This document shows positions 2,589 through 26,030 of a DNA stretch of 26,030 bases, one piece after another. Within the stretch, counting starts at the first letter, position 1, and every line of letters starts with the position of its first letter. Origin of the DNA: a virus. The translations under genes were made by a program, and so were the position numbers. The DNA lies in IMG/VR virus record IMGVR_UViG_3300009418_000104, positions 1 to 26,030 of that record; one strand, written 5' to 3'. A model generated the notes under the pieces. The model had not been told where the DNA came from and ran no database searches. It worked only from the letters and a program-made list of their open reading frames with translations.

Positions 2589-3404
2589 TCAGAAGGCTTC
2601 GTCATCGCTGCTTCCTTCATCGGGGGGAGGCGCCACATTGGCCACCCCGGACATGACCTGTTCGCGGAAACCCTTGGCGCCCTCGTACAGAGCGACGTCA
2701 GCATCCCGCTGCTTTTTGTCCGAACCCAGCTGCCGCTCGAGTTCGATCTTCACGCCTTTCCAAGTATAGTCATCTTTGGCTTCGCCGACGGTCGTCACGC
2801 GGTACATGTGACTATACGTCGGTGGCGTAAACTTGGACCCATCCGCACGCTCGATCTTGAGGTGTTGCATCTGGGTCATCCAGTCCCGCGACTTTTTGAT
2901 CTGGGTGGAGGCCAACGAGAAGACGACTGGTTGGGTGTTGCCGTCATCATCGATGAGAATGCAGAAGTGATAACGGGTGTCGGCCAGGTAGGCCTCGTCG
3001 TCCTTCAGCCAGAACTTGCCGCTCTCATCCCGCCGGCATTTGGCGATGATGGGATCGTTAGCCGGCCGACGGCCACGGAAGCCCCCACCGGCCTCGCGGG
3101 GTGTCCATTCCACGAACACCCGTTCGAAATGTGCCGGCACAACGAGCACGCCTTCTTCGCCGCTGTAGACGTCCTTGGTCGCACTGTTATAAAGCATGCC
3201 GGCCCGCGCCCCCTTGATGTAGGACCCGTGATCCTCGTCAACCTGTGGGCTGCCCTTCTGCAGGATTTGCAGATACGGGATGGCATAAGAGTCGACGTCC
3301 GCGTTCTCGAAGCCCCCTCCAGCATCTTCTTCGAATGGTAGTGCCACTGCACCACCGGATTTCTGCTTAGCGGGAACCTGCGTCTTCTTTCCTTTTTTCG
3401 CCAT
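2589..3404 (-). CDS. Probable single-stranded DNA-binding protein with acidic C-terminal tail
   Basis: A 271-residue protein with a strong AAGGAG site before its ATG. The N-terminus is basic (MAKKGKKTQVPAKQKSGG), and the central region is β-rich and charged. The last 17 residues are acidic and end in SSDDEAF. An acidic tail closed by phenylalanine is the hallmark of phage gp2.5-type and bacterial SSB proteins, where it recruits partner proteins and competes with DNA. The replication context (SNF2 helicase, primase, exonuclease) supports the call. The core does not show an OB-fold signature I can recognise by eye, so the assignment rests on the tail, length and neighbours. I recall similar proteins annotated only as hypothetical phage proteins. 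Confidence 0.55.
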   Translation of the reverse strand: MAKKGKKTQVPAKQKSGGAVALPFEEDAGGGFENADVDSYAIPYLQILQKGSPQVDEDHGSYIKGARAGMLYNSATKDVYSGEEGVLVVPAHFERVFVEWTPREAGGGFRGRRPANDPIIAKCRRDESGKFWLKDDEAYLADTRYHFCILIDDDGNTQPVVFSLASTQIKKSRDWMTQMQHLKIERADGSKFTPPTYSHMYRVTTVGEAKDDYTWKGVKIELERQLGSDKKQRDADVALYEGAKGFREQVMSGVANVAPPPDEGSSDDEAF

Positions 3405-16977: not shown

Positions 16978-18992
16978 CAGGCCCTGCCTCTCAGCCGTGG
17001 GTCACGACGTTGTGCTTCGACGACGGCACCGACAGCCCGCCGTTCGAATGTACCATCCAGTGCGAGCACGATCGTTTCGAGCCGGTTGATGGCTGCACTG
17101 TCGGCCCCACGCGCGTCAATGAATACTGTCGAGCCAACCCTCTTCGTTTGTTGATTGGTTGGCGTGACATCTACTTGCTCGCCTTTGGTGGCCTGGAACT
17201 GCACGAGGTTTGCATCTGTTCCACCACGACCGGCCACTTTGAAGGAGCCACCCTGAGCGAACCGGGGGAATGTCGTACCACCGAATTCTCCCAGGCCGCT
17301 AGTGACGCCCGAACCAGGACCGATCGCAGCAGGTGTTCCACCGCCACCAAAGCCAATGGCGCCTAAGATACTCCCGAAAATGCTACCACCCCCAGCCTTG
17401 GCCGCACCGCCTAAGCTATCAAAGAATGCTGACTTGGCCTGGGCAAAGAGGAAATTCTGAACATCAGCCAGCAGCCCCCGCAATGTCCCACGGAGGTCCT
17501 CGCCAGACTGGATGGCATCCAAGAAGGAACTTGACATTCGCTCACCCAGGACGACCACGACTTTTTGGAACTCCTGCGTTTTCTTCTTGGTCTCAGTCAA
17601 GATGTCATTGGCCTTCACAAGTGACCGCTGGTAAGTATCGAAGTCGATGAGGTTGTTCGCGAACAGATCCTGAAGCTCGAGCAGTCGGGCCTGGTAGTTC
17701 TCCATGGGTGTACGCGTCTCAGTGAATGCGGCCTTGGCCGCGGCCCGAAATTCGTTGTTCTTGTCGATCACCTCCTGCATGACGGCCAGCCCCTCCTGCT
17801 GGGCAGCACGAAATGATCCCCCGGCAGGTCGGCCTACGGAAGGAAAGCCAAGATCCGCCGTGGCATCAGCAAATGGGCTTAGCCCACTCGTCGCAGCAGG
17901 AGCCTCCCCTGCAGCACTGGCGCCGGCAACCCGCAGCCGTTCGGCCTTGCGAAGTGCGGCCAGCATGGAGTTATTCAACCGTTCGATGGCGGCCTGGGTC
18001 TCATCAACTCGTTGCTGTAGCTGGCCACCCAGCCCACTTACACTATCGGCCCAACTCTTCAGCGCACTTTGGTCTTCCAGTTCTTCCCGCAAGCCAACGA
18101 GCTTGGCCTGCAGTTCAGCCATCTTGGCCTGAGCACTCTGGTCAATGATGTTGAAGTATACAGCCCACTCCCGCCCCCAAGTAATGATCGCAGGAATGGA
18201 ATTCGTCAGGGCCGTCGCCAGATCAGCAATGGCGTCCGCATTTTCCAGCACGGCCTGCGTCACCTTCACCTTGATCAAGGTGAACAGCAACGTAAGCTCA
18301 TCCTTAGCCTTCTCAGCCGACCGTAGCAGGTCCTCCTCCAGCACCAGCCCCAGATCTCTGGCCCGTTGTATGGCGGCCTCCATGCCCCCGATGCCATTCT
18401 TAATCAGGTTGGTCATGTCTACGCCCATGGTCCGCCCAAAGGCCGCAGCGAACAGCGCAGCCCGATCCAGTTGGGAGGTCAGGGAAGCACCCTTTTTGAT
18501 AATGAGGTCGAAAGCGTCGTCGACGTTCTGGGCGGCTTGGACATTCTTCAGCAGCTCCGTATCCATGCCTTTCAGGATGGTGATTAAGGTACCCGTGCCC
18601 GCGCGGGCTTCACCGATCCGCTTGGCGAAGGCCGACAGGCCACCGGCCATGGCCCCAACATTAACGCCGGCTAGATCCGCTGCCACACGGAGCTCTTGCA
18701 GCTTGGTTGTAGTGAACCCGGTCTTGTCTGCTGTCTTTGCCAGCTCGTCACCGAAATCAATGGATTTTTTGATGAGCAATCCAAGACCAGTGACACCTGC
18801 CGCGAGGACCATGGCCCCACGGAAGGACGCCATCTTCTTGACGGCACCCCCGACGGATTTCCCAACACTGCGGAAGGTTTTACCGACGCGGCTCTGGAAT
18901 GTTCGCAAGCGCCGTTCGGTCTGATCGATGCCACGATTAAATGGCTTCATGTCAGCCTCGAACCGAATGGCCAATGTGCCTAATGTTGCCAT
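16977..18992 (-). CDS. Tail tape measure protein
   Basis: A 671-residue protein starting MATLGTLAIRFEADMKPFNR, a typical tape measure opening. Residues ~20-55 are helical with RTFQSRVGKTFRSVGKSVGG. A hydrophobic stretch follows (58-74, FRGAMVLAAGVTGLGLLI). Long helical, coiled-coil segments fill the middle (for example MAELQAKLVGLREELEDQ and AAIERLNNSMLAALRKAERL). A glycine-rich hydrophobic part follows near 555-600. The C-terminus carries GRGGTDANLVQFQATKGEQV and DARGADSAAINRLE, motifs I associate with phages of this type. It sets tail length and is ejected into the host envelope. The start overlaps the stop of the frameshifted chaperone by one base (TGATG), and Dit follows directly. Confidence 0.92.
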   Translation of the reverse strand: MATLGTLAIRFEADMKPFNRGIDQTERRLRTFQSRVGKTFRSVGKSVGGAVKKMASFRGAMVLAAGVTGLGLLIKKSIDFGDELAKTADKTGFTTTKLQELRVAADLAGVNVGAMAGGLSAFAKRIGEARAGTGTLITILKGMDTELLKNVQAAQNVDDAFDLIIKKGASLTSQLDRAALFAAAFGRTMGVDMTNLIKNGIGGMEAAIQRARDLGLVLEEDLLRSAEKAKDELTLLFTLIKVKVTQAVLENADAIADLATALTNSIPAIITWGREWAVYFNIIDQSAQAKMAELQAKLVGLREELEDQSALKSWADSVSGLGGQLQQRVDETQAAIERLNNSMLAALRKAERLRVAGASAAGEAPAATSGLSPFADATADLGFPSVGRPAGGSFRAAQQEGLAVMQEVIDKNNEFRAAAKAAFTETRTPMENYQARLLELQDLFANNLIDFDTYQRSLVKANDILTETKKKTQEFQKVVVVLGERMSSSFLDAIQSGEDLRGTLRGLLADVQNFLFAQAKSAFFDSLGGAAKAGGGSIFGSILGAIGFGGGGTPAAIGPGSGVTSGLGEFGGTTFPRFAQGGSFKVAGRGGTDANLVQFQATKGEQVDVTPTNQQTKRVGSTVFIDARGADSAAINRLETIVLALDGTFERRAVGAVVEAQRRDPRLRGRA

Positions 18993-19563
18993 CAGTGCTT
19001 ACGCCCCTTCTTTGTCTTGTCCATGACCCGCTGGAGCAGCTGACCCTGAATGGCCCCTTCGTCGTCGAGTTCGTTCTCGATCTGCTTGAAGGCCAGCCAT
19101 TCAGTAATCTCCTCGCTGGTCAATTCACACAACAGCGCCCTGACGCTGGGATATCCTAACTCGCGACAGAGGGCGAGGTACCTAATCCGCTCGGGGCGCC
19201 GCCTAAGTTTCCCACCACTTCCTCGATGTCCTGTTCGGTCAGACCATTCAATCGAGAAGCAACGGCAAAGACACGGTCGAGGGCTTTCGCATTCTTCTTG
19301 CCCAGTTCGATCATGTCTGCAGCAGTGAACATCAGCTCGCCGTCGCCATTGATGGCGGTCAGAGCAATGAGACGTGCCCGCATGTTCTGGAACACCGACT
19401 TACGGCTTTCACCGTCCTCCGGCATCAGCGAAGCCTCCCACTTGTCTCGCTCCGTTCCGGTCATCATACGGACAGTCACCTTACCATCCCATTCGGGTAC
19501 TTCGACATCTTCAGTACGAAGGTCGTCCGCACCCAAGATGTCCTCCTTGGATAGGGTTCTCAT
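18992..19563 (-). CDS. Tail assembly chaperone, -1 frameshift fusion (gpGT-like)
   Basis: A predicted 190-residue fusion made by ribosomes slipping back one base at GGGAAAC (19213-19207). Residues 1-119 come from the unshifted frame. The shifted frame then reads LRRRPERIRYLALCRELGYP, continues through LTSEEITEWLAFKQIENELD, and ends QRVMDKTKKGRKH. This gives 71 more codons to a TGA at 18994-18992 that overlaps the tape measure ATG. In lambda, gpG and gpGT bind the tape measure and recruit tail tube subunits. The shifted segment LAFKQIENEL resembles the T-like part of other phages. The location, exactly between tail tube and tape measure, is the expected one. Product ratios cannot be read from sequence. 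Confidence 0.88.
19156..19563 (-). CDS. Tail assembly chaperone, unshifted product (gpG-like)
   Basis: A 135-residue protein with a strong AAGGAGGGAGG site before the ATG. It starts MRTLSKEDILGADDLRTEDV and has a β-strand segment VEVPEWDGKVTVRMMTGTE (20-38). A helical core follows (ALTAINGDGELMFTAADMIE and KALDRVFAVASRLNGLTEQD). The overall shape is like other siphovirus gpG-type tail chaperones. After the slippery site it adds only 16 residues, ending LGTSPSVAS. This is the abundant form expected when no frameshift occurs. It helps keep the tape measure soluble and starts tail tube assembly. Confidence 0.88.
   Translation of the reverse strand: MRTLSKEDILGADDLRTEDVEVPEWDGKVTVRMMTGTERDKWEASLMPEDGESRKSVFQNMRARLIALTAINGDGELMFTAADMIELGKKNAKALDRVFAVASRLNGLTEQDIEEVVGNLGGAPSGLGTSPSVAS
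19207..19213 (-). promoter_or_regulatory. Programmed -1 ribosomal frameshift slippery site GGGAAAC
   Basis: The minus-strand heptamer G GGA AAC is in exact X XXY YYZ register: the first G is the third base of codon 117 (GTG), GGA is codon 118 and AAC is codon 119. The -1 frame is then open for 71 codons to the TGA that overlaps the tape measure start. Lambda uses GGGAAAG at the same genetic position. I did not find a convincing downstream pseudoknot by eye. Confidence 0.9.
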
Positions 19564-19584
19564 GCCTCCCTCCTTTCCTAAGGG

Positions 19585-19992
19585 TTATGATGTGGCTCGC
19601 GTGAGTGTGCCAGCCGACTGGATAGTGATATTGGTCGTCGCCAAATCACCCACGGCCCCACCCATCGGCGGGTAGGTTTCCAGCACACCATTGCCGGTGA
19701 AGCTGGGGTTGGTCGCGCTAACGGCCGAACTCGTCGGCACCAGGACACAAGCGAACACGGTTCCAACGATGCTGAAGAGGGTGGCATCGACCTTGGACGC
19801 CGCGAAGTCCTGGGCAAACTCAATGTCGATAGACCAATCCAACAGGCCACCAATGCGTGACCGGGTAGTATCGCTCATCACAGTATCATCTTGCAGCTCC
19901 GCGCTATAGTTCAGAACGCAAGACTTCACGTGGTCCGACAAATCGACCGTGTTGAGTGTGACAGAGTAATCAGTTGCAACGAAGATCGCCAT
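19585..19992 (-). CDS. Tail tube protein paralog (short form)
   Basis: A 135-residue protein with AAGGAG before its ATG. It shares with the upstream gene the order DLSDHVKSCVLNYSAELQDD, then TVMSDTTRSRIGGLLDW; the counterpart there reads DLSGHLNQMALEYAAELQDD, TVFGDDTRSRIGG. The similarity is strongest over about residues 17-50 and is also visible at the DNA level. It lacks the ~100-residue C-terminal domain of its neighbour. A tail tube or tube-like fold is inferred from this and from position just before the chaperones. It may be a second tube component, a tube cap or terminal ring protein, or a duplicated copy that has diverged. Confidence 0.75.
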   Translation of the reverse strand: MAIFVATDYSVTLNTVDLSDHVKSCVLNYSAELQDDTVMSDTTRSRIGGLLDWSIDIEFAQDFAASKVDATLFSIVGTVFACVLVPTSSAVSATNPSFTGNGVLETYPPMGGAVGDLATTNITIQSAGTLTRATS

Positions 19993-21604: not shown

Positions 21605-21936
21605 CAGGTGGCTACCCCCTCATCGCACAGCATGACAAGGTACCGGGCTTTATCATCCTCAGGATCGAAGATGCCCTTGATGTTGAATGCCCGCGACCCC
21701 ACCACGAACCGGTTCTCCGTCGTGATGTCCGTCCGATGCCGAATCGTCACCTGGTGGGTGACTACATCTTCGAGGCCCTGCTGGGCAAGACGCTCGCCCG
21801 CGGACATAGGTTTAATGTGGCCCCACACGCTGGCGACTGCATCCCAGGACAACGTACCACCGGCACCGCCACCAGCATCCGGTGTCATGTTCTTAACCTG
21901 CAGGTCGAGCTGTGTTCTCATCTTGCCGATGTTCAT
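21604..21936 (-). CDS. Head closure / head-tail joining protein (PF05521-like)
   Basis: A 110-residue β-rich protein: MRTQLDLQVKNMTPDAGGGA, then LSWDAVASVWGHIKPMSAGE, then QVTIRHRTDITTENRFVVGS and FNIKGIFDPEDDKARYLVML. The order 'L.lq......D..Gg....w..va.vwa.i.pl.g.E' followed by 'H.v.iRyr.di...~r...~~r.f.I..i.d' is that of the SPP1 gp16 / HK97 head closure family. It plugs the connector after packaging. It starts with a four-base ATGA overlap with the adaptor gene and ends as TGATG with the gp10-like gene. Confidence 0.88.
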   Translation of the reverse strand: MNIGKMRTQLDLQVKNMTPDAGGGAGGTLSWDAVASVWGHIKPMSAGERLAQQGLEDVVTHQVTIRHRTDITTENRFVVGSRAFNIKGIFDPEDDKARYLVMLCDEGVAT

Positions 21937-22610
21937 CCGACTTCTATGATCCGTTTGCTATCCCAAAGGGATCTGACACCCCAGGGCATTTGATTGGCAT
22001 TTGTCTCCTGGACTTCCGCACGGTTCTCGTACAGATGCCCGATGAGCATAAGCATTCCCGACATGAGGTCATCGGGTATGCTACCAGCGACGCCATAGCC
22101 ACAGACGAATTGGACTTCAATGCCATTCGCTACACGCGAGGGGTTCGGCCAACTGGAGCCAGATCGCAAAACAATCCGCCCGGGTTCGGTCGCTGTATCG
22201 ACGAAGTAATTACTGGCAGCGAATGTCGTCGCTACATCGGCATCATCGTAAGTTTTGATGTGCGTTACTGATGCTAAAGGTGGCTTGGGTAACACGATCC
22301 CTTCCGCTCGGCCGGTAATGATGCTCTCAGGACCGGTGCGAGTGCCTTCCCACAGCGCATCGGCATCATTGGAGAACGGCCATTGGTCCATGAACGCTTG
22401 CCACGTCTGAGTGATCAGCGCCCGCCCCGTGTAATCCTCACAGCGTTGACGAGCCGCCACGATGAGATTGGTGATGAGGGTATCGTCTGCTGTATCGGTC
22501 ACCTTCAGATGATCCTTGGCAGTCGCTACCAACATCGGCTCAACGGTGGGAGCGCCCTGTTCCGTAAGACGGAGCGGGAGCTTAATCAGTCGAGTTGGAC
22601 TGAGGGACAA
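21933..22610 (-). CDS. Head-tail connector/adaptor protein (gp6 / phiE125 gp8-like)
   Basis: A 225-residue protein. The only sensible start is the TTG at 22610, with GGGAG about eight bases upstream, opening MSLSPTRLIKLPLRLTEQGA. Typical adaptor motifs follow: AKDHLKVTDTADDTLITNLI and AARQRCEDYTGRALITQTWQ, then 'P.pPl.sVt.I' as LPKPPLASVTHIKTYDD. Near the C-terminus come GSIPDDLMSGMLMLIGHLYE and MPWGVRSLWDSKRII. These are characteristic of the phage adaptor that binds beneath the portal. Its neighbour is the head closure gene, overlapping by four bases, as expected. The rare TTG start is worth noting. Confidence 0.88.
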   Translation of the reverse strand: MSLSPTRLIKLPLRLTEQGAPTVEPMLVATAKDHLKVTDTADDTLITNLIVAARQRCEDYTGRALITQTWQAFMDQWPFSNDADALWEGTRTGPESIITGRAEGIVLPKPPLASVTHIKTYDDADVATTFAASNYFVDTATEPGRIVLRSGSSWPNPSRVANGIEVQFVCGYGVAGSIPDDLMSGMLMLIGHLYENRAEVQETNANQMPWGVRSLWDSKRIIEVG

Positions 22611-22613
22611 TGA

Positions 22614-22826
22614 TCAGTCTCCCTTGTCCTCGGGGGCGCCGGCCTTGGCCTTGTTGTCCTTCTTTTCTTTTTTGGCCTTGGGGGCCGTGGTGTCTTCGGC
22701 CAGGCCACCTTCGACGAACACATCCCGCAAGCGTTCGGGCACGTTGTGCTTATCGCCCTCCTTGAAGTGTTCGACTTTGGCGCCGTCTGGCGAGCCGTCA
22801 CAGTCCTGTTTCATCTTGACCCACAT
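22614..22826 (-). CDS. Small charged protein of the head region
   Basis: A protein of about 70 residues. The ATG at 22826 has GGAG eight bases upstream; a TTG one codon earlier is also possible. The first half contains KMKQDCDGSPDGAKVEHFKE followed by DKHNVPERLRDVFVEGGLAE. This resembles small phage head-region proteins with the pattern '...y..Gd.~~vpe~la~~~i~~G~a~~'. The rest is a lysine-, alanine- and acid-rich tail (APKAKKEKKDNKAKAGAPED) that is probably disordered. Function unknown. It lies between the membrane enzyme gene and the adaptor. Confidence 0.6.
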   Translation of the reverse strand: MWVKMKQDCDGSPDGAKVEHFKEGDKHNVPERLRDVFVEGGLAEDTTAPKAKKEKKDNKAKAGAPEDKGD

Positions 22827-22843
22827 CAAATTCTCTCCTTCCG

Positions 22844-24298
22844 TTATTTAAGATGACCACGCATGGCCGCATACTCCAATGTCGTGAGCACCACCGGATT
22901 GGATCGGGGAGAAGCGAGTGTGCTCACGAGCATTGCCTCCCCGAATTTCTTCGGCGGGACACCGTGCTTCGGGTCCAACCTCACCCACCTCATTAGCGCC
23001 GGGAATAGAACGATCCGACGCAGATTATAGAAGGGATACTCCCTGAGGGCCATCCGCTCAAGCTGGTAAGCCAGCTTCGGCACCTCCCGTTTAACGTTCT
23101 CAGCGATCATGTGCATCTGTTCGGCCTTGGCCTCCTTGATGCCATAGTAGCCAACGATCGCTATCGTCACTGCCATCAACCCAGGCAACACCAGCCGACG
23201 CAGCGCGCTCCTTCGCGCACGCCCGAAGGCGGGTGCCATTACTCCCAGGCCCACGACCGCCATGAAGGCCGTCGCTGGGTTCTGTAAGGGGAAGGACACC
23301 AGGGCCAGGGTTGCCAGGGCGGCCAGGGAAAAACAATGGGGGCCGATGCCCACACATCGCTTTAGGACCATGACCGCAAAAATGGTGACGATGCCAAATC
23401 CCACAAGACCCAGGTCGCTCAACAGCTGCAGATATTCGTTGTGCGCTGCCTCGACCACGGTGCCCGGCGTCACCACTTCCGTGAATGGTGCCGTCGCGAA
23501 AAAAGGATACTGGTACAGATACCCACCAAATCCCTGCCCGATCAATGGAGCAGCCCACCACATCCGCAGCGTGGTCTGAGCGAATTCCCAACGGAAGCGT
23601 AAGGACGTCTGGAGCTCCGTACTGCTCCACAGGACGACCAAGAGGACAACGGATAGGCCCAAGGCTATGATAAGAAGATCAGTGGTCATCACACGGCGTC
23701 TCCAGGCGCATATGGCGAAGGCGACCATGCCCGCAAAAGCGACGAACTCGCTATGGCTGGGGTTGTCCCAAAGCTGGTAGGCGGCAGCAATGACCACGGC
23801 ACTGCGGATAACCCAGGGCACTCGCCACACGGCCCAGGGCAGCGCCACCAGGATCATCTCCGAGACCAAGTTGTCATTCCCAAAGCCCCCTCGCCAATCT
23901 GGCCGGAGGATATCACTAACGCTAGCAACGATAATTGCCGCAGCGGCAGCCCAACTCATCGCAGTAATCAAGAAATCTTGGTCCACTCGTCGGACCAAAA
24001 TAAACAATATGAGCAACGCCGTGGCATGGAACATCTGATGTGTGTACTGAGCAACGTCGGGGGTCCATGCAATGGAGGCTGCAGCCCAAGCGAGCATCAT
24101 CCCGGCCACCATATCGACGACATCCAGGCGAGCCCGATCGGTAATCAGCAGCACGCACCCCACGGCAGCCAGCACTTCAATCGCCAGCCATTTGGGTGCT
24201 ACCACTAGACCCCAACTTGGAACGTGGCCCGCCATCGCCGCGGTCGCAAGGACCGCAGCAATGACGAGCGCACATCCCTTGTAGTACGTGGTCAGCAT
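22844..24298 (-). CDS. Polytopic O-antigen ligase/polymerase-like membrane glycosyltransferase (Wzy_C type)
   Basis: A 484-residue protein with about 11 to 13 hydrophobic segments. A polar loop (about 226-294) holds the family signature: RFRWEFAQTTLRMWWAAPLI, then GQGFGGYLYQYPFF, then EAAHNEYLQLLSDLGLVGFG (H286). An upstream GGFGNDNLVSE (137-147) matches another conserved site. WaaL, Wzy and PglL/PilO-type enzymes share this layout and move lipid-linked glycans to lipid A core, to growing polymer or to protein in the periplasm. Which acceptor is used cannot be told from sequence. The last ~95 residues (390-484) are soluble. The ATG follows the TAA of the exported protein gene with no gap and no separate ribosome site, so translation is coupled. 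The location inside the head operon is unusual. Confidence 0.8.
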   Translation of the reverse strand: MLTTYYKGCALVIAAVLATAAMAGHVPSWGLVVAPKWLAIEVLAAVGCVLLITDRARLDVVDMVAGMMLAWAAASIAWTPDVAQYTHQMFHATALLILFILVRRVDQDFLITAMSWAAAAAIIVASVSDILRPDWRGGFGNDNLVSEMILVALPWAVWRVPWVIRSAVVIAAAYQLWDNPSHSEFVAFAGMVAFAICAWRRRVMTTDLLIIALGLSVVLLVVLWSSTELQTSLRFRWEFAQTTLRMWWAAPLIGQGFGGYLYQYPFFATAPFTEVVTPGTVVEAAHNEYLQLLSDLGLVGFGIVTIFAVMVLKRCVGIGPHCFSLAALATLALVSFPLQNPATAFMAVVGLGVMAPAFGRARRSALRRLVLPGLMAVTIAIVGYYGIKEAKAEQMHMIAENVKREVPKLAYQLERMALREYPFYNLRRIVLFPALMRWVRLDPKHGVPPKKFGEAMLVSTLASPRSNPVVLTTLEYAAMRGHLK

Positions 24299-24880
24299 TT
24301 ACCGATCGATGGTAATGGTGAACACGGCCTTGGCAGTCGTTGACGAGGCACCATCGCTCTCGATGACAATACGTTCACCCGCGGCCACTGTGTTAAGCGC
24401 AGTGGGTGTCGCGGTTCCCGTATCGCCGACCGAGATTGGTGAGGCCACATCGACCTCGCCACCAGTGATCGGTGTCTTTCCGGTAGCGTCCTGGATGTAA
24501 GCGACGAAGGTTAGGTCACTCGCCGACCCTTCCGTGATCGCTGTATCAATGGACACGCGGATCGAACTGATATCACCGGCAACGGGCATCGGGACGTACA
24601 CCGTTGAGGAGGCCGTCTGAATATCTGCCAGTGTAAATGACAGATACGCTTCGTCCAGCTCCGCACCGGTTGCCGATACCGTGGTGCTCGCAATGGAGAA
24701 CGTGCCACCGCTTTCGATGTCCAGGTCACCGCCGCTGGCGATATCGAGCGATCCACCGATCACCCAACGCGCACCACCTTGCTCCGAATAATTGCTGACA
24801 TTCTGAGCAATAGCGGCACCAGCGAAGATGCACAGGCCAACAAACAATCCTGACAAGGCTTTCTTCAGAAGATTTCGCAT
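24299..24880 (-). CDS. Exported, virion-like β-repeat protein with signal peptide
   Basis: A 193-residue protein with AAGGAG before the ATG. It starts with a clear signal peptide: n-region MRNLLKK, hydrophobic ALSGLFVGLCIFAGAAIA, and probable cleavage AIA/QN. The mature part opens NVSNYSEQGGARWVIGGSLD and continues IASGGDLDIESGGTFSIAST. This NYxEQGGA...IGG...SGG pattern I recall from phage head-decoration or fibre-like proteins, normally without a signal peptide. The rest is β-rich (RVSIDTAITEGSASDLTFVA and so on), with no enzymatic motif. It is directly coupled to the membrane glycan enzyme gene. It may be a glycosylated or envelope-located product, or a virion protein with a helical N-terminus that only imitates a signal. 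Confidence 0.7.
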   Translation of the reverse strand: MRNLLKKALSGLFVGLCIFAGAAIAQNVSNYSEQGGARWVIGGSLDIASGGDLDIESGGTFSIASTTVSATGAELDEAYLSFTLADIQTASSTVYVPMPVAGDISSIRVSIDTAITEGSASDLTFVAYIQDATGKTPITGGEVDVASPISVGDTGTATPTALNTVAAGERIVIESDGASSTTAKAVFTITIDR

Positions 24881-24907
24881 TGCGTTTCTCCTTCCAATGG
24901 GTCAGGC

Positions 24908-24960: not shown

Positions 24961-25383
24961 TCAGGTGGCTTGCGCCGTGACCGGAGCGTGCCTGGCCTTG
25001 CCGGACAGCCAACAGGCGCAGAAGAACGCGACGCCCGCATTGCCGGCCGGTGTGATGGTTGCCCTCAGATACCGCTCCGGAGGCACGATGCCGATACGAC
25101 GGACGGTGTTGTCGTCGGCTTCGTCGAACGAGACATTGGCCTCGTCCACCTGCAGGAAGGCATCGTCGACCGCGACGTTATCCGACAAGCCGCTGTCGTC
25201 GCCGCTTTCGATGAGAACGGTGAAGGTGGCAGCCGCGTCCGCCAGGGACCCGATGAGAATGAGGAGCAGAACTTCCTCGAACCCCTGGGTGTCCAGGATC
25301 TCAGACACGAGCACCGTGTTGTCGCTGCTGTCGGCAATGGGGCTAATCGCCCGAGCCGGCAGAAGATTGTTATAGAGGTTCAT
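24961..25383 (-). CDS. Conserved small head-region protein, possible capsid decoration
   Basis: A 140-residue protein with AAGGAGGG before its ATG, directly after the capsid gene. It reads MNLYNNLLPARAISPIADSS, then LDTQGFEEVLLLILIGSLAD, then FTVLIESGDDSGLSDNVAVD, and ends ERYLRATITPAGNAGVAFFC followed by HAPVTAQAT. I recall this pattern ('...RYLRv......G.......l..~~rhAP') from proteins found next to HK97-type capsid genes, with unknown or decoration function. The SGDDSG...RYLR pattern resembles the C-terminal domain of the major tail protein in this phage (SDDNSG...WWRV), so a shared β-sandwich fold is possible. Confidence 0.65.
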   Translation of the reverse strand: MNLYNNLLPARAISPIADSSDNTVLVSEILDTQGFEEVLLLILIGSLADAAATFTVLIESGDDSGLSDNVAVDDAFLQVDEANVSFDEADDNTVRRIGIVPPERYLRATITPAGNAGVAFFCACWLSGKARHAPVTAQAT

Positions 25384-25398
25384 GATGATGAGCCCTCC

Positions 25399-26030
25399 TT
25401 AGGCCGAGATGGTGTTGAGGCGAAGCGCCTCGGCGAGCACCACCTGCCCACCGACACGGCGACGGGCAATGAAGCGGACGTTGCCGCTCGCGGCTTGCGT
25501 ATAGGGATCACGCAGAACCGACAGGCGAATGCGGTCCACGATGAGATAGCCCCGACGGAAGTCGCCGAAAGCGACCGAGTTGGCGGCCGCGGCTTGGTTG
25601 GGCATGTCCGTTGCCTCGACATACGGTGCCCCGATGATCGTGTTCGGAACGCCGTTCGCAATGCCGGCCATCCACAAGTACTGACCGTTGCCGTCCTTCA
25701 ACTTGCGGACGGCGCCGATGGAGTTCCTGTTGAGGACCCAGACAGCATTGCGGGCATACGCCGACTTGATGGCGTGGAATGTGTCGATCAGACCGTCGGC
25801 CTGGATCAGCGTTGCGTGCCCGGAGTTCGTAGTGCCGACGTCGCCGTTCTGCAGGAAGCCCTCGGGCTGTCCCACGGCGTCGCCGTTCACGAACGCTGTG
25901 CCTTCGGAGACGCCGAACTGTTCGGCGAACTCCATGTTGAGTTCGGCCTCAAGGTTGAACGCACTGTCCTCGAGGTCTTGCTCGGAGATGTCCACCAGCG
26001 CATAGTGCTCGTGCGTGGGGATTTCCTCCA
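25399..26030 (-). CDS. Major capsid protein (HK97 fold), C-terminal part, cut by the right edge
   Basis: The frame is open to the window edge. Reading in, it gives EEIPTHEHYALVDISEQDLE, then DSAFNLEAELNMEFAEQFGV, then EGTAFVNGDAVGQPEGFL, a familiar HK97-type order ('~~~e~~A~~~vs~~lLeDs~~~l~~~l~~~~~~~~a~~e~~afi~G~G~~qP~Gil'). The remainder has the expected NAVWVLNRNSIGAVRKLKDG, then PYVEATDMPNQAAAANSVAF and GDFRRGYLIVDRIRLSVLRD, and ends with RVGGQVVLAEALRLNTISA. About 210 residues are present. The N-terminal part, including any scaffold domain, lies outside. An internal GTG at 25995 is not the start. Confidence 0.93.
   Translation of the reverse strand, partial: EEIPTHEHYALVDISEQDLEDSAFNLEAELNMEFAEQFGVSEGTAFVNGDAVGQPEGFLQNGDVGTTNSGHATLIQADGLIDTFHAIKSAYARNAVWVLNRNSIGAVRKLKDGNGQYLWMAGIANGVPNTIIGAPYVEATDMPNQAAAANSVAFGDFRRGYLIVDRIRLSVLRDPYTQAASGNVRFIARRRVGGQVVLAEALRLNTISA

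Follow-up and report, generated by a model that had tools for sequence, protein, structure and literature searches.

The window analysed here, a 26,030-nucleotide stretch of viral DNA (positions 1 to 26,030 of IMG/VR record IMGVR_UViG_3300009418_000104) forming part of an uncultured-phage genome, carries in its late head operon a gene for a Wzy_C/WaaL-like polytopic membrane enzyme, directly preceded by a gene for a head-fibre-type protein (A) with a predicted Sec signal peptide. Similar pairs recur in phages with unrelated capsids. The export of A, and of a second protein (B) in some of those phages, and their pairing with Wzy_C are well supported by sequence comparison. On balance, we favor the reading that the enzyme belongs to the WaaL/PglL/TfpO superfamily as a periplasm-facing O-oligosaccharyltransferase (O-OTase) whose protein substrate is encoded in genetic linkage with it.

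The open reading frame (22844..24298, minus strand) is a real gene encoding 484 aa. An earlier note, made from the sequence alone, had proposed a Wzy_C/WaaL-type polytopic enzyme from motifs that are indeed present in the frame (e.g., AHNEYLQ...DLG), and Pfam bore this out: the protein matched Wzy_C (PF04932) above the gathering score (E = 2.7e-12, 47.1 bits vs a cut-off of 31.7). It had 8 strong hydrophobic segments on a simple scale, and an AlphaFold model (pTM 0.84), built on 28 aligned sequences from phage and cellular relatives, contained about 12 transmembrane-length helices and a C-terminal helical (TPR-like) region at approximately residues 407-479. The top Foldseek match in the PDB was WaaL (7tpg_B; E 3.6e-5, probability 1.00, TM 0.55 by target length), followed by the glycosyltransferases RodA and FtsW; the AlphaFold model and Foldseek together thus give the WaaL-like GT-C fold that the earlier note had expected. 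No match to the enzyme was found in the PDB by phmmer or among PHROG families.

Functional residues are established for E. coli WaaL (R288/H338) and PglL (R298/H349) (PMC3643930). By position and spacing, their equivalents are R236 (codon 23591..23593, minus strand) and, 50 residues further on, H286 (codon 23441..23443, minus strand), both of which were invariant across the 28 phage and cellular sequences. The enzyme thereby shares two of three functional residues with WaaL (PF04932; 7tpg), but the equivalent of R215, assigned by alignment only, was mostly lost: the SR of cellular members is replaced in the focal enzyme and most of the phage clade, which on the sequence evidence appears to be a real departure from WaaL. 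PglL differs in carrying PglL_A (PF15864) and Wzy_C_2, neither of which was detected in the phage enzyme at E<=1 in the Pfam scan; of the HMM checks proposed earlier, the one for Wzy_C was thus positive and the one for PglL_A negative. Both domains are also missing from TfpO and TfpM (PMC12645811). The TfpM model of NCBIfam (NF058641) scored 15.8 bits (E 0.005), far short of its curated cut-off of 600.

The surrounding genes confirmed the late head operon. On the minus strand they run from the HK97-type major capsid protein (25399..26028; PF05065, 5.5e-60; its 5' part lies beyond the window) through a 140-aa phrog_5707 protein directly after it (24961..25383; 2.4e-18; kept in relatives), the 193-aa protein A, the Wzy_C gene and a 71-aa phrog_1020 protein (22614..22829; 8e-11) to the head-tail connector (21933..22610; PF05135, phrog_442), which forms the downstream edge of a variable slot; head closure (PF05521) comes next. 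The earlier placement between capsid and connector genes therefore holds for the overall order but not for the immediate neighbors, which are A upstream and the phrog_1020 protein downstream. Five further IMG/VR contigs from this phage carry the frame intact at ~100% identity; these sister contigs, uncurated like all IMG/VR contigs, were about 99.8-100% identical to the window, and one of 52.8 kb (G002), which spans the genes from prohead protease around to capsid, is near-complete by gene content. No tyrosine integrase (PF00589) was found in G002, and lysogenic conversion was rejected on this ground and on the head-operon position. The Wzy of Pseudomonas phage D3 and VG_p25 of VarioGold are likewise phage-encoded Wzy_C membrane proteins, but their genes are located away from the late structural operon and they are thought to act during lysogeny, a distinction that the earlier note had rightly drawn for D3-type polymerases.

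Protein A (Y193; 24299..24880, minus strand), as read from its sequence, homologies and an AF2 model, consists of a signal peptide, a head-fibre-type N-domain and a jelly-roll-type C-domain, and its stop codon abuts the start of the enzyme (TAA-ATG, 0 nt). The position of a strong ribosome-binding site, GGAAGGAG (24888..24895, minus strand), fixes the start of A before the signal peptide, which was predicted heuristically as MRNLLKKALSGLFVGLCIFAGAAIA (24806..24880, minus strand). The adjoining N-domain, QNVSNYSEQGGARWVIGGSLDIASGG (24728..24805, minus strand), was 64% identical over 28 aa (E 5e-11) to a cytosolic homologue in locus L108 and matched phrog_12102 (1e-8). Head-fibre homologues in the capsid relatives lack a signal and begin at the mature start of A, and the signal peptide is predicted from these sequences to be a clean N-terminal addition. 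The C-domain (24302..24658, minus strand; residues 75-193 aligned) is homologous to A0, a post-capsid protein of SU10-type phages, with an HMM of 49 A0 sequences giving E 6.4e-16 in the candidate set. Foldseek returned only generic jelly rolls for A, including capsid chains of phages KHP30 and Pam1, all with TM <0.5 by query length.

Signal peptides were called by a simple home-made heuristic. A first, looser version gave 13 positives in the SU10 controls, mostly one conserved cytosolic protein, and the rule was therefore tightened; the tightened version flagged 12 of 619 upstream control ORFs. One of these was the focal phage's own 111-aa protein, encoded between terminase and portal (G002 2995-3330, minus strand; L030 4514-4846, plus strand). 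The match of this protein to phrog_12296 ('tail fiber protein', 9e-24) is confined to residues 26-110, which suggests that its signal is an addition to a family normally without one.

A motif scan and an alignment-based scan recovered a viral clade of the enzyme, and a capsid search supplied further loci. Members of this clade, only ~23-32% identical to the focal enzyme, occur in phages with an SU10-type capsid, a family unrelated to the focal phage capsid, and yet share the order major capsid protein, exported A, Wzy_C. Twelve such Wzy+ phages had an evaluable neighborhood, in addition to a partial one (L282). By eye, a signal-peptide A stood directly before the enzyme in 12/12; by the heuristic it was called in 11/12 (L184 being the case recognized by eye) vs 2/60 Wzy- phages (p 3e-10), and both of the latter look like false positives. 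Ten of the 12 also encode, after the enzyme, the second signal-peptide protein, B. A and B are homologous to A0 and B0, respectively, which lack signal peptides and occupy the corresponding two positions in most Wzy- SU10 phages. Homologues of A0 and B0 also occur in pelagiphage HTVC106P. A C-x3-C pair was present in 9 of 10 exported B proteins vs 0 of 40 cytosolic B0 proteins (p 4e-9), which mostly have one cysteine or none; since B would be expected to form a disulphide only once exported, the pair provides independent support for export of B. In the capsid tree the Wzy+ SU10 phages group as a single clade, and the A and cysteine-pair counts therefore reflect shared descent. Independence of these counts was rejected accordingly, and the within-group test shows co-retention over deep divergence rather than independent origins. 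In L178, L182, L183 and others, a conserved motif [IL][RQ]Q..DGT..W immediately follows the point where A is predicted to be cleaved and is a candidate capsid anchor or acceptor-recognition motif.

The pairing extended to other capsid families. Among motif-selected phage genes beyond the SU10 clade with an evaluable upstream gene, 22 of 24 were directly preceded by a signal-peptide gene, against a background of 22 in 238 non-neighbor genes, and the upstream partners were usually 156-255 aa long. Ten scanned upstream genes in the capsid position belonged to at least six head PHROG families (phrog_3437, phrog_334, phrog_9953, phrog_1328, phrog_1005 and phrog_4523/phrog_133). An out-of-sample set selected with a second motif gave an upstream signal peptide in only 6 of 14 vs a background of 28 in 150 (p 0.04), with several further cases in which the signal-peptide gene was downstream, so that the pairing is common but not universal. 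Signal-peptide partners beside Wzy_C in L129, L141, L142, L164 and L174 share a beta domain ('AEYWK...GDVVYIKGSDG.AYKADA..RPAVG') weakly like the head-decoration family phrog_122; the partner in L142 sits behind a protease-capsid fusion gene.

In bacteria, PF04932 comprises both LPS ligases and protein O-OTases (PMC3643930, PMC12645811), WaaL and O-OTases being inseparable by simple sequence comparison (PMC3643930), and substrate-specific O-OTases are encoded beside their substrate (PMC3643930, PMC12645811). The phage enzyme resembles TfpO/PilO, TfpM and PglS as a Wzy_C enzyme whose gene neighbors that of an exported protein, in the phage a candidate substrate, and it lacks PglL_A and Wzy_C_2 as TfpO and TfpM do. 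The partner of TfpO/PilO/TfpM is a pilin, whereas that of the phage enzyme is a beta protein of head-region type that bears a cleavable-type Sec signal; the phage gene also differs from that of WaaL in lying in a head operon beside such a protein. Because the phage arrangement thus repeats the pilin/O-OTase arrangement, except that a head-type protein replaces the pilin, an O-OTase with a dedicated exported substrate is favored. Of the two roles suggested earlier, 'glycosylating an exported protein' is now much better supported, through the abutting signal-peptide gene and the pairing over capsid families, and 'altering host surface glycans' received no specific support. Among the nearest cellular relatives of the enzyme, 9 of 19 have a type IV pilin gene directly upstream. 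In Nitrospira and related bacteria (L210, L211, L213, L217, L218, L202 and L203), Wzy_C directly follows a type IV pilin gene, and those Nitrospira-group enzymes that were scanned have C-terminal TPRs; they are probably uncharacterised pilin O-OTases.

The usual view is that tailed phages assemble their particles from proteins of the cytosol. Mechanistically, we suggest that late in infection the host Sec system would export A, in the focal phage possibly together with the 111-aa protein whose gene adjoins that of the terminase, and that the enzyme would then move a host glycan, linked to undecaprenyl pyrophosphate, en bloc onto Ser/Thr residues in the exported proteins. When lysis mixes cytoplasm and periplasm, these proteins could join the particles and yield capsids with host-type sugars. 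What was computed is the fold, the conserved residues, the operon position, the predicted signal peptides, the recurrence of the pair and the cysteine pair in exported B; catalysis, a protein as acceptor, a host glycan as donor and virion incorporation are what we infer. No GT1 or GT2 glycosyltransferase was found in the phage, so the glycan donor would be host-made, and the head-fibre domain kept by mature A suggests joining of the virion at lysis, which we regard as possible. More broadly, and only tentatively, many uncultured tailed phages with capsids of several families may encode Sec-exported capsid-decorating proteins that a phage enzyme O-glycosylates with host lipid-linked glycans and that are loaded at lysis. 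If true, this route of virion glycosylation by a periplasmic phage O-OTase would be previously undescribed, and literature searches found no precedent for a phage Wzy_C with an exported head-type protein. The mycobacteriophage enzymes proposed to glycosylate capsids are soluble glycosyltransferases that act in the cytosol. Glycosylation of capsids by phage glycosyltransferases, as proposed in mycobacteriophages (PMC11256854), would resemble the present proposal in its sugar-coated capsids but follow a cytosolic route, whereas the route proposed here would be periplasmic and lipid-linked.

Several observations count against an O-OTase that decorates virions. Because virion assembly is cytoplasmic, a periplasmic protein could be added only at lysis; the R215 equivalent is mostly lost, and PglL_A and Wzy_C_2 are missing. 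No Ser/Thr enrichment accompanies export either, Ser+Thr content being 0.221 in exported A vs 0.222 in cytosolic A0. The C-terminal Ser/Thr that serves as acceptor in TfpO/TfpM systems is absent from the focal A (which ends in ...TIDR) and from the other partners, and neither the focal A nor the other partners have a pilin motif. The enzyme might instead act late as an O-antigen ligase or polymerase and change host LPS so that superinfection, or re-adsorption to debris, is prevented; the exported proteins would then be separate envelope factors. WaaL as the best structural match, the Pfam Wzy_C assignment and the link of the D3 and VarioGold phage Wzy proteins to serotype conversion all fit such a role, but it leaves unexplained both the frequent pairing over capsid families and the signal peptides on cytosolic head-region homologues specifically in Wzy+ phages. 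Late expression would also leave little time for LPS replacement, and the GT1/GT2 search found no other LPS genes in the phage; we consider this role rather unlikely. The pair could alternatively produce a glycosylated surface or periplasmic protein outside the virion, such as a factor, descended from a former head protein, that blocks receptors or excludes superinfecting phages. Although export and the cysteine pair of B would suit any periplasmic destination, the head-fibre motif kept in mature A, the location in the head cluster and the weak resemblance of some partners to head-decoration families make this quite unlikely.

It is very improbable that the gene is functionless cargo captured by chance in the capsid-connector slot. 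Such capture would agree with the absence of the Wzy_C gene from about 90 capsid relatives, whose slot holds homing endonucleases and methyltransferase- and hydrolase-like ORFs, but not with the intact frame and conserved residues in the sister contigs, the abutting partner, or the reappearance of enzyme and exported partner together in unrelated phages. The earlier note had recognized neither the exported partners nor the recurrence elsewhere. Conservation of the slot content among capsid relatives was rejected, the slot being a variable cargo site: a GIY-YIG-like ORF, a methyltransferase-like fusion, LamG/SGNH-like proteins (identified by eye) and homing endonucleases were seen in L012, L015, L020 and L040. 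A recent cellular insertion was rejected as well because no close relative of the enzyme was found in 84,980 genomes; cellular matches by alignment were weak and mostly confined to the motif region.

With the focal enzyme and four other phage representatives as queries, tblastn found no match in 50,697 named phage records, so this arrangement may have been overlooked for want of a known cultured example. If the favored O-OTase reading is true, some phages would use the periplasmic space for processing their proteins and may carry host sugars, with consequences for adsorption, particle loss, grazing and immune recognition. The enzymes would also form a new group of compact glycosyl-transfer enzymes that come with their own protein partners. 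Elsewhere in the focal phage, a 459-aa asparagine-synthase-like protein (G002 18390-19769, minus strand; identified by eye) adjoins thymidylate-kinase-like and methyltransferase-like genes.
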